Shown: positions 113 to 50,595 of the stretch, in pieces
How the letters are laid out: each line of letters opens with the position of its first letter
How positions within the stretch are numbered: position 1 is the stretch's first letter
NCBI GenBank assembly: GCA_028288675.1
Contig: JAQBNG010000057.1
Location: 1-51,954, forward strand
Reading direction: 5' to 3'
Source of the DNA: Flavisolibacter sp.
GTDB taxonomy: Bacteria > Bacteroidota > Bacteroidia > Chitinophagales > Chitinophagaceae
DNA: 51,954 nucleotides
The notes under the pieces: model-generated
Told to the model about the DNA's origin: nothing
What the model saw: only the letters and a program-made list of their open reading frames with translations
Database searches by the model: none
Program-made: the position numbers and the translations under genes

Positions 113-1654
113 ATGTTATTATTAGGAATTGATCTAGGCACTTCTTCAATAAAAGTTTCCGTAGTAGATGCGGCTAACCAAAACTGCATTGCTTCGGCGC
201 AGTACCCTGAAGCCGAAGTGGAAATTATTGCGGTGCAAAGCGGCTGGGCAGAACAAAGCCCTGATCAATGGTGGGAACATGTACAGCAGGCTATTTTGAA
301 ATGCAATGCAATTAACAGCTATGATCCAAAAGACATTGGTGCTATCGGTATCGCGTATCAAATGCATGGCCTGGTGCTGGTTGATAAAGAACAGGACACA
401 TTACGTAATGCCATTATCTGGTGCGATGGCCGTGCTGTTTCTATTGGCGATAAAGCCTTTAATGAAATAGGGGAGGAAGATTGCTTATCGCATCTATTAA
501 ACTCTCCCGGAAATTTTACAGCCTCCAAATTAGCATGGGTTAAAAAGGAAGAACCACAGATATATGAGCGTATTGATAAAATATTGCTGCCCGGGGATTT
601 TATTGCCATGAAGCTAACCGGCGAATCCACTACCACGATGTCTGCTTTATCAGAAGGGGTGTTCTGGGATTTTAAAGAAGGGGCAATATCAAAAGATGTG
701 ATGACCTACTTTGGTTTTGATGAAGCATTGATACCACTAGTACAGCCCCTGTTCTCCTCTCACGGAAATGTAAAAGAATCAGTAGCCCTAAGGCTTTCTT
801 TAACCCCTGGCATACCGGTTACCTATAAAGCAGGCGACCAGTTAAACAATGCTTTTTCGTTAAACGTATTGCACCCGGGAGAAGTTGCCGCCACCGCGGG
901 TACATCGGGTGTTATTTATGGCGTAAGCGATCAATTGAACTATGACCAACAATCCCGCATCAACAGCTTTGCGCATGTAAATCATCAAACCCCCTCTCAG
1001 CGAGGAGAGGGGGCAGGGGGTGAGGCGGCCCGCATCGGCGTTTTGTTATGTATAAATGGCGCAGGTATTTTTAACCGCTGGGTAAGAAATATTATGGGTG
1101 CGCAGCACAGTTATGATGGTTTGAACACAGACGCTTCACATATAGCTGTTGGCTCTGATGGTTTATTTATGCTGCCGTTTGGCAACGGTGCTGAACGCAT
1201 GTTAGGCAACAATACAATTGGAGCGCATATACATGGCTTGGATTTCAATCTTCACACACCGGCGCATCTTGTACGTGCCGCCCAGGAAGGTGTGGCTTTC
1301 GCTTTCAGGTATGGACTTGACATTATGCGGGAAAATGCCATGGAGCCGGCCATTATTCGTGCAGGAAAAGCTAATATGTTTTTAAGCGATGTGTTTACCC
1401 AGTCGTTTGTAAACGCTACCGGCGTACCGGTTGAACTCTATCAAACCGATGGCAGTATTGGTGCAGCTCTCGGTGCCGGCGTAGGCGCGGGAATTTACAA
1501 GGGTGAAGGAGAAGCCTTCGCTAACAGAAAGCCGTTGAAATTAGTTGCGCCTTCTTCAACAAAAACCTATGAACCTTTGTACCAGCAATGGAAAGCTTTA
1601 TTGGAAGCGCAGATGCAAACATTAGAAAGCCATCTTGTTTTAAACAAAATATAA
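113..1654 (+). CDS. xylB: Xylulokinase
   Basis: This FGGY-family kinase (513 aa) phosphorylates D-xylulose to xylulose-5-phosphate, linking xylose isomerase to the pentose phosphate pathway. The N-terminal phosphate-binding motif GIDLGTSSIK is at residues 5-14, the substrate-loop YQMHGLVL follows near residue 82, and the second ATPase motif AGDQ...AATAGTSGV lies near 242-266. It is the first gene of a xylose/arabinose operon; xylA starts 17 bases after its stop. The odd feature is residues 293-304 (TPSQRGEGAGGE), which are encoded by a G/C-rich palindromic repeat that also occurs between genes at 41877. The repeat keeps the reading frame and makes the protein longer than the usual roughly 500 aa. 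Function is well supported; whether the insert is tolerated is inferred from the intact rest of the protein. Confidence 0.95.
   Translation: MLLLGIDLGTSSIKVSVVDAANQNCIASAQYPEAEVEIIAVQSGWAEQSPDQWWEHVQQAILKCNAINSYDPKDIGAIGIAYQMHGLVLVDKEQDTLRNAIIWCDGRAVSIGDKAFNEIGEEDCLSHLLNSPGNFTASKLAWVKKEEPQIYERIDKILLPGDFIAMKLTGESTTTMSALSEGVFWDFKEGAISKDVMTYFGFDEALIPLVQPLFSSHGNVKESVALRLSLTPGIPVTYKAGDQLNNAFSLNVLHPGEVAATAGTSGVIYGVSDQLNYDQQSRINSFAHVNHQTPSQRGEGAGGEAARIGVLLCINGAGIFNRWVRNIMGAQHSYDGLNTDASHIAVGSDGLFMLPFGNGAERMLGNNTIGAHIHGLDFNLHTPAHLVRAAQEGVAFAFRYGLDIMRENAMEPAIIRAGKANMFLSDVFTQSFVNATGVPVELYQTDGSIGAALGAGVGAGIYKGEGEAFANRKPLKLVAPSSTKTYEPLYQQWKALLEAQMQTLESHLVLNKI
989..1025 (+). repeat. Palindromic C/G-rich repeat inserted in frame in xylB
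   Basis: The 37 bases pair CCCCTCTC (991-998) with GAGAGGGG, and on the opposite strand read CCTCACCCCCTGCCCCCTCTCC, matching the intergenic copy at 41877-41918 (CCTCACCCCAGCCCTCTCC...GGAGAGGG). It is translated as xylB residues 293-304. The base composition is far from that of the surrounding gene. Confidence 0.8.
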
Positions 1655-5331: not shown

Positions 5332-5411
5332 GTACCAGGCGACAGAACATCCATTTGACTTTCGTGGAGTTTATCCTGAGCGCAGCCGAAGGATCGCACT
5401 CTTGTACGTTC
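5332..5411 (+). repeat. Dispersed TCGCACTCTTGTAC repeat, copy 1
   Basis: The stretch begins with GTACCAGGCG-like sequence and ends with TCGCACTCTTGTACGTTC (5394-5411), the conserved core of a repeat found six times in this window. Its variable middle contains the REP-like palindrome ATCCTGAG...GAAGGAT (5373-5394). It occupies most of the unusually long araB-araD gap and points toward araD. Confidence 0.65.
5373..5394. repeat. REP-like palindrome ATCCTGAG..CCGAAGGAT
   Basis: An imperfect palindrome with ATCCT at one end and AGGAT at the other around GAGCGCAGCCGA. Related copies are at 9612-9632 and 47813-47833. Confidence 0.65.
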
Positions 5412-6143: not shown

Positions 6144-6166
6144 AACAAAGCGTACAAGAGTGCCCT
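6144..6166 (-). repeat. Dispersed TCGCACTCTTGTAC repeat, copy 2
   Basis: The minus strand reads GCACTCTTGTACGCTTTGTTC, a short copy of the repeat core. It begins directly after the araD stop and is inverted relative to copy 1. Confidence 0.55.
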
Positions 6167-35035: not shown

Positions 35036-35369
35036 ACAACTAAATATCGAATAAAGGAACAAGGAACCGATGAATGAAGAAGTGAATACAAAACAGGCAA
35101 TTGGATGAACGTAGATAAAGGTTCCGGCATGACCTCGTTAACGGTGAATTTGCAAAGCAGAATAGAAATACAGAATGTACAAGAGTGGTTCTAATCTTTT
35201 CTTTCACTGAAAGAAAAAGATTAGAACAAATCAAAGATTGCAGGAGACGCTTCATAGCAGCACTTTTGCTAGGTACAAAAATGATTCAATATAGGGGACG
35301 TTTGAATAATGAAATGAATGATAGAATTTAAGAACCCGAAATTCTAAACCTGAAACTCGAAATTAATTT
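35036..35369. other. sdhC-sdhA intergenic region
   Basis: 334 bases without a gene. The central part (35171-35281) is a copy of the dispersed repeat with an internal hairpin. The rest has no recognised signal except A/T-rich sequence before sdhA. Such a long gap inside an sdh operon is unusual and might separate transcripts. Confidence 0.7.
35171..35281 (-). repeat. Dispersed TCGCACTCTTGTAC repeat, copy 3, with internal hairpin
   Basis: On the minus strand it begins TTTTTGTACCTAGCAAAAGTGC, continues GCTATGAAGC and ends CCACTCTTGTACATTCTG (35171-35188). Both ends match copy 6. Between them is a palindrome (GTTCTAATCTTTTCTTT, 35188-35204, pairing with 35210-35227 with one bulged A) that replaces the GCGTCG part of other copies. 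Confidence 0.65.
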
Positions 35370-41876: not shown

Positions 41877-41918
41877 CCTCACCCCAGCCCTCTCCAACTT
41901 GTTGGAGAGGGAGTCCTT
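41877..41918. repeat. C/G-rich palindromic repeat, intergenic copy
   Basis: CCTCACCCCAGCCCTCTCC, then a short AACTTG loop and GGAGAGGGAGTCCTT. The core CCCTCTCC/GGAGAGGG pairs. It belongs to the family of the repeat that interrupts xylB at 989-1025 and starts two bases after the SprA-like stop codon. Confidence 0.75.
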
Positions 41919-42011: not shown

Positions 42012-42050
42012 TGGCATCGTCTGTTGCATCGCACTCTTGTACGTTCTTAT
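42012..42050 (+). repeat. Dispersed TCGCACTCTTGTAC repeat, copy 4
   Basis: GTTGCATCGCACTCTTGTACGTTC on + with a matching TATGGCATCGTC prefix; the distal part of the repeat is not recognisable. Confidence 0.6.
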
Positions 42051-49931: not shown

Positions 49932-49985
49932 GTGGTACTATGAAGCTTTTGTTGCGTCGCACTCTTGTGCTCCTTGTAATTCTAT
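49932..49985 (+). repeat. Dispersed TCGCACTCTTGTAC repeat, copy 5
   Basis: GTGGTACTATGAAGC, then TTTTGTTGCGTCGCACTCTTGTG and TTGTAATTCTATT. It agrees with copy 6 over almost its entire length but in the opposite orientation. Confidence 0.7.
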
Positions 49986-50427: not shown

Positions 50428-50532
50428 CTGCTTACAGTATTGTTATCTTCATAGCGCTTTGGTATAAGAGACGTTAAACTGACATGCAGTATAAATGTTT
50501 ACAGACTGGTTCTGTAATGCTGCATAGAATTA

Positions 50533-50595
50533 CAGAATGTACAAGAGTGCGACGCAAGAAAAGATTCATAGTAGCACTTGCCTCTGGTACAAAAA
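50533..50595 (-). repeat. Dispersed TCGCACTCTTGTAC repeat, copy 6
   Basis: Minus strand: TTTTTGTACCAGAGGCAAGTGC, TACTATGAATC, TTGCGTCGCACTCTTGTACATTCTG. It is the most complete copy and defines both ends of the repeat. Confidence 0.7.

Follow-up and report, generated by a model that had tools for sequence, protein, structure and literature searches.

A palindromic insert read in frame in Flavisolibacter xylB is probably the solo end of a mobile family linked to DUF559 nucleases

The window, that is, the whole stretch of 51,954 nucleotides analyzed here (Flavisolibacter sp., contig JAQBNG010000057.1), contains an FGGY-family sugar kinase gene, xylB, with a short palindromic element inside its reading frame, and a second copy of the same palindrome located between genes. 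The relevant features are as follows.

113–1654, plus strand: xylB, host of the insert, FGGY-family sugar kinase (ORF list; Pfam FGGY_N 2e-48, FGGY_C 4.9e-10)
989–1024, plus strand: codons for TPSQRGEGAGGE, in frame with xylB
990–1025, minus strand: palindromic element, probable solo end, 36 nt inside xylB
1025–1017, minus strand: tail of the element, CCTCACCCC
1016–1014, minus strand: spacer
1013–1005 and 998–990, minus strand: hairpin arms
1004–999, minus strand: hairpin loop
38368–41874, plus strand: 1168-aa ORF without Pfam match, its stop codon 2 nt before the second palindrome
41877–41918, plus strand: second palindrome copy, downstream of the stop that ends the 1168-aa ORF
5387–5405, 6145–6163, 35151–35188, 42022–42040, 49950–49968 and 50513–50550: six places, all between listed ORFs, of a second dispersed short repeat, GTACAAGAGTGC or its complement GCACTCTTGT

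Read on the minus strand, positions 990–1025 are CCTCACCCCCTGCCCCCTCTCCTCGCTGAGAGGGGG, a C-rich tail followed by a 9-bp hairpin (the make-up of CCTCACCCCC tail plus hairpin), within which lies a perfect CCCTCTC-N6-GAGAGGG hairpin. A preliminary description, made from the sequence alone, had placed a palindrome in frame in xylB, and this was confirmed with a shift of one base: the element covers positions 990–1025 and the corresponding codons 989–1024. Searching the window for the hairpin pattern with up to 3 mismatches returned 3 matches, a number reached by 0 of 100 shuffles, and folding of the two window copies as single-stranded DNA gave −9.6 and −10.5 kcal/mol, with 2 of 200 shuffles equally good for each copy.

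The loop of the kinase that harbors the insert, measured from HVN to R, has 16 residues here and 6 in most relatives. The net gain is 10 residues although the element measures 36 nt and the solo insert itself encodes 12, so some residues of the earlier loop are gone, either lost or replaced. Among 109 aligned xylB rows (gathered from two collections, so that some genomes are present twice), 107 have the short loop and two, L021 and L051, carry other insertions at this place; distant orthologs lack the 12 residues. Nine further xylB loci from the same genus yielded a short loop in 6, a different long loop in L199, and no match in L203 and L204. A full element was found in xylB neither in the 109 rows nor at the 9 further loci. 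A structure prediction built on 24 sequences has two strands flanking XylB residues 288–307; confidence is low over these residues, with pLDDT values of 65 and 67 by block.

To the recurrence of the palindrome, which the preliminary description had proposed from the copy at 41877–41918, the genome gives a clear answer: the pattern CCTCACCCCN{0,12}CCTCTCC has 15 occurrences in 4.74 Mb, against 0 for a reversed-pattern control. The alignment of these 15 copies (A1) displays the CCTCACCCC tail, a spacer of a few nucleotides, a stem that starts with C/G, and a loop of variable length. A first alignment restricted to the element (A2) was poor, and a covariance model, R1, was built from A1 instead. 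R1 produced 66 matches in the genome at E ≤ 1, of which 16 were antisense matches of a hairpin already counted; this left 50 places, and 43 of these score E < 0.01 (E-values are rough). Their stems vary by paired changes on both arms (CCCTCTCC/GGAGAGGG, CCTCCTCTCC/GGAGAGGAGG, and CCTTCTCC/GGAGAAGG). The sharing of a perfect hairpin and an invariant tail by dozens of copies, together with the empty reversed-pattern control, leaves next to no room for the idea that the xylB loop is naturally variable and that a C/G-rich indel matches the palindrome by chance or local slippage, even if that loop does tolerate other indels (L021, L051, and L199); coincidence is refuted by the copy number and the conserved architecture.

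Eight of the 50 places lie fully inside ORFs, which were called by codon score. These copies occupy six ORFs, all with a Pfam match, namely xylB, leucyl-tRNA synthetase (LeuRS; 2 copies), adenine deaminase, an Lhr-like DEXH helicase (2 copies), an FAD-dependent protein, and an RNA U5-methyltransferase. At 19 of the 50 places, including the window copy at 41877, the CCTCACC end starts 0–2 nt downstream of a stop codon that closes a same-strand ORF, at exactly 2 nt in 15 cases; the stop distance was measured precisely at the CCTCACC end only. Stop-adjacent copies with the 2-nt spacing, such as L132, L133, L135, L138, and L142, have the codon phase xxC CTC ACC, a phase also favored by in-frame full elements (13 of 18 with a readable left tail; see below). 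At L190 (C111:869–932), the palindrome sits at the 3′ end of a gene, which we take to be HtpG from its looks, and, being read in frame, supplies NLTPALS-stop. In total, 36 of the 50 palindromes are outside inverted pairs.

The related genomes present a similar picture. We collected 80 stretches from nine other genomes of the taxonomic family, covering part of the matches listed, and found in them 83 strict copies. An open frame extends at least 60 codons to either side of 23 copies, and 22 of these frames match Pfam families, including GatB, MetH, an AMP-binding enzyme, LeuRS, two RNB-type ribonucleases, AlaRS, a carbamoyltransferase, three DEXH helicases, a GTPase, a Mur ligase, and histidinol dehydrogenase; the frame without a Pfam match (L436) is probably spurious. 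Another 22 copies have a stop codon within 30 nt before them, 0 nt (8 copies) being commoner than 2 nt (4 copies), so the 2-nt spacing of the Flavisolibacter genome is not general. The other 38 copies are neither in an open frame nor stop-adjacent. The suggestion that one palindrome class resides in both coding and noncoding DNA while keeping the frame is supported, with in-frame copies in conserved proteins at 8 of 50 places in the Flavisolibacter genome and for 22 of 83 copies in the nine relatives. An Lhr-like DEXH helicase is a hot spot, with solo in-frame palindromes in the same region, at slightly different positions, in four genomes (L407, L422, L424, and the Flavisolibacter copy on C65, L140).

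The LeuRS of the Flavisolibacter genome holds far more than a palindrome: its insert of ~180 residues is bounded by two inverted copies and contains a DUF559 domain (PF04480, E 2.4e-30). A second DUF559 gene of this genome (C143) is likewise bounded by an inverted palindrome pair, and the remaining two are flanked by other hairpins, clearly inverted in L217 (score 17) and weakly so in L216 (score 10, under the threshold of 12 used below). PF04480 was detected in 60 of 117 genomes of the taxonomic family (50 of them with strong matches of at least 65 bits) and in 138 of 247 genomes of the phylum, 36 of the 138 being weak. We examined 94 of the 100 strong matches in the family sample, the six left out being among the lowest-scoring, and compared their 260-nt flanks for inverted similarity with a threshold score of at least 12; L301, with a short flank, was skipped. 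The threshold was reached at 58 of 93 DUF559 loci, compared to 5 of 347 control windows moved outwards from these loci, and 35 of the 93 loci scored below it. GC-rich hairpins of at least 7 bp were present on both sides of only 26 of 93 loci, against 1 of 261 controls. Swapping flanks between loci placed 15 of 34 loci above the 95th percentile of this control and 5 above the 99th; the control is weak because the loci share a repeat family, which is why windows shifted at the same loci were used. Comparison of the flanks in direct orientation returned mostly hairpin self-similarity, with larger local duplications in L237, L239, and L241, and some flanking palindromes are themselves in direct orientation (G339 and G206).

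The ends also track the nuclease. Among the 58 loci, end similarity climbs with nuclease identity (Mantel r 0.21, 0 of 2000 permutations), the mean for elements of different genomes rising from 0.32 at <35% nuclease identity to 0.74 at >65%. Palindromes and DUF559 co-occur across genomes, with an odds ratio of 19.7 (p 8e-11) in the taxonomic family, for palindromes among the matches listed, and of 6.5 (p 2e-6) in the phylum; both figures ignore phylogeny and derive from lists copied by hand. Six of 39 family genomes with a palindrome (among the matches listed) and 8 of 36 in the phylum sample are devoid of a strong DUF559 match. G039, with at least 23 copies, and G045, with at least 13, some of which are 300–400 nt apart in the same orientation, belong to the genomes without strong DUF559; another mobilizing enzyme may be present there, or the nuclease may have been lost. 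The main point, missed by the preliminary description, is that the palindrome constitutes the terminal inverted repeats of DUF559 elements, which are themselves in frame in host genes.

This arrangement resembles terminal-inverted-repeat transposons, in which matching inverted ends surround a mobility gene, a role that DUF559 would presumably play here. No target-site duplication was noticed, and the filled and empty LeuRS loops diverge too much to judge. Miniature inverted-repeat elements (MITEs) have a counterpart in inverted palindrome pairs a few hundred nucleotides apart without DUF559 between them (C152:3695–3969, C248:11103–11474, C165:631–989, and C68:11444–12080 in the Flavisolibacter genome; also G291); in contrast to MITEs, each end here forms a hairpin of its own, and ends also survive singly.

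Another organizational parallel to weigh is that of the GTAG REP/RAYT systems (REPtrons), which share with the present family palindromic ends around a single-gene unit, many solo copies, a frequent location shortly after stop codons, and the presence of some copies in genes. The palindrome could accordingly be an ordinary REP moved by a RAYT (Y1 HuH transposase), with DUF559 genes merely gathering REPs as both accumulate in the same spots. The Flavisolibacter genome does contain RAYT-type genes (5 PF01797 matches at 4 loci), in-frame REPs inside genes are on record in passages of PMC3733652, and the Bacteroidetes RAYT subclass 2.6 is described, in part of PMC6006769, as having atypical secondary structures on its flanks, further copies of which occur in other parts of the genome. 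However, the conserved GTAG is absent from the 15 aligned copies, the gene partnered with the ends here encodes a DUF559 nuclease and not a Y1 HuH enzyme, and the pairing around DUF559 is inverted. Furthermore, R1 finds no element in L127–L129 and only a weak one in L126 (E 0.033), ~1 kb from the gene, and the RAYT of L129 adjoins a different palindrome family, GGCCTGAGTTTGCAACTCAGGCC. With none of the 4 Y1 loci having a convincing R1 element alongside, the genome lends no support to a RAYT as the partner of this palindrome, and we consider this explanation decidedly unlikely. The RAYT-like gene of L129 (C69) and the several GGCCTGAGTTTGCAACTCAGGCC palindromes that it adjoins represent a second REP-like family in the genome, and at L128 (C33) GCGTTCC..GGAACGC palindromes adjoin a broken Y1 gene.

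LeuRS displays such an element in different states. In 18 genomes of the genus, the loop between GAEI.F and YTTRPDT is empty in 11, holds DUF559 between palindromes in 4 (the Flavisolibacter genome under study, L283, L286, and L294), carries only a palindromic in-frame remnant in 2 (L282 and L290, judged by eye), and could not be parsed in 1 (L287). A second LeuRS site has a solo palindrome in L378 and the full element in L223, L225, L227, L232, and L242. The xylB peptide resembles the right ends of full elements, for example that of L304 (APLSARRGVGGEA), and, with the remnant and solo states in LeuRS also in view, the xylB insert is best explained as a remnant or a solo end.

Residence within host proteins is common among the DUF559 domains examined: in 46 of 94 cases, the frame encodes 230 or more residues besides the domain, and 39 of 94 are in frame with at least 100 residues of host before and at least 60 after them. 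The hosts comprise LeuRS (two sites), MetH (three sites), AroC, CinA, adenine deaminase, IcmF, MetRS, IspG, a DEXH helicase, and an HsdR-like protein. An NCBIfam scan of ten hosts identified a clear host family in 9, with L306 being weakly peptidase-like; several of these matches were under the curated cut-off, their frames being cut or interrupted, and hosts beyond the ten scanned were named by eye, as were two LeuRS hosts in another family of the same class (L440 and L443). In a tree of 97 DUF559 domains (108 columns, many forks unresolved, midpoint root), the internal inserts group in a single 42-row clade (99/91), plus the short-contig row L301; those outside the clade are L315 (IspG), L218 (HsdR-like), and the unclear L344. 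Within the clade, LeuRS sites 1 and 2 are interleaved, and CinA, adenine deaminase, and MetRS are mixed, a distribution of hosts and sites that implies movement between hosts.

The D, E, D, and H columns of DUF559, which we take to be catalytic, are kept in 40–41 of 41 in-frame copies. In 12 of 25 listed pairs with finite dS, dN/dS is 0.10–0.28, for high dS values (0.77–2.19) and pairs that are not independent. Judged from these sequence comparisons, purifying selection seems to act on the in-frame nuclease, even though it is lodged within a different protein.

Patchy residence of a nuclease in conserved genes is also seen with homing endonucleases. Passages in PMC9403480 and PMC12907096 link DUF559 to Vsr-like and EDxHD nucleases, the former assigning one DUF559 gene to the EDxHD homing family, and the nearest solved structures by sequence are the endonuclease-like 3hrl (E 2.5e-19) and, weakly, 3r3p, a “Mobile intron protein” (E 0.016). 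DUF559 could therefore be a homing endonuclease of the EDxHD/Vsr-like type represented by I-Bth0305I, which acts by allelic gene conversion at fixed sites, with the palindromes as bystanders or repair scars and the xylB insert as one such scar; the repeated, patchy occupation of the LeuRS sites would fit. Unlike that type, the elements described here possess palindromic terminal repeats, and a single clade has settled in many unrelated hosts and sites (LeuRS, MetH, AroC, CinA, adenine deaminase, MetRS, and IcmF), which requires non-allelic movement. Nor would allelic homing explain the palindromes outside inverted pairs (36 of 50). We regard this alternative as unlikely, if less so than the involvement of a RAYT, and favor a mobile family whose ends are the palindromes.

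If the inserts were removed after transcription or translation, as introns or inteins, the proteins would not truly be extended, and a nuclease in a conserved gene is indeed the classical layout of such elements (PMC3943268, in part). As in inteins, the insert is in frame with the host protein and carries a nuclease. By contrast, Rfam searches at the gathering threshold gave 0 matches in 14 loci, which speaks against an intron, and no intein or Hint model was found among the Pfam matches of the Flavisolibacter LeuRS or the NCBIfam matches of the ten DUF559 hosts; neither a self-splicing intron nor an intein was thus found around the nuclease in these sets. The solo xylB insert, moreover, amounts to 12 residues only. 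Removal is very improbable, and the insert, with no splicing domain found, presumably stays in the protein.

In this respect, the family recalls the palindromes in proteins that passages of PMC3733652 describe for the Rickettsia RPEs and the GTAG/CGTC REPs of several species, and the likeness to Rickettsia elements drawn in the preliminary description holds for behavior, namely, short palindromes between genes and in frame in conserved proteins. It finds no support as regards family membership. The CGTC superfamily is defined there by a terminal CGTC (or TGTC/CCTC) tag adjoining an 8–9 bp stem that starts with A/T pairs, with a loop of 4–5, whereas in the present elements a short spacer separates a C-rich tail from a C/G stem, with no CGTC-type tag adjoining an A/T-starting stem; the 5′ CCTC would, taken alone, pass as a variant tag. 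The same passages report CGTC repeats without a dedicated transposase, in contrast to the nuclease gene with palindromes at both ends found here.

We propose that the complete mobile form would consist of a palindromic end made up of the C-rich tail and the hairpin, then some tens of nucleotides, a DUF559 nuclease domain of ~105 residues, and the same end inverted. The family is located between genes, often near a stop codon, and one nuclease lineage also occurs within coding sequence, where it leaves the host frame open, such that the host protein would be read with an extra loop, either the nuclease domain or only the palindrome-encoded peptide (LTPxPSPxGEG or PSPxERGxxGGE). The sequences establish the association, the in-frame residence, and the conserved nuclease residues; that the nuclease recognizes the palindromes and drives their movement is our inference. 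Solo copies such as that in xylB would be internal-deletion remnants or non-autonomous ends moved in trans; accordingly, either a lone end would have entered xylB or a full element there would have lost its internal part. In our assessment, the xylB insert is probably a solo end from a mobile family that is linked to a nuclease and preserves the reading frame.

A broader reading, to which we give about equal weight for and against, is that the palindrome-ended DUF559 unit represents a new class of bacterial mobile element, adapted to living translated, without splicing, in the ORFs of conserved and essential genes, and shedding solo palindromes, the one in xylB among them, by which protein loops become longer across Bacteroidota. 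Titles and abstract openings in the open-access literature, among the matches listed, returned no paper joining DUF559 to palindromic repeats or to in-frame insertion. The invasion of conserved genes is normally accompanied by splicing, through introns or inteins. In the present case, LeuRS, MetH, AroC, MetRS, and other core proteins seem to harbor a nuclease-bearing element that maintains itself through an open frame and a peptide that can be tolerated. If this is correct, the palindromes in proteins known from Rickettsia elements would gain a candidate enzyme and mechanism, a widespread domain of so far unknown function would acquire a role, and many odd loop insertions in the proteins of Bacteroidota would be accounted for.
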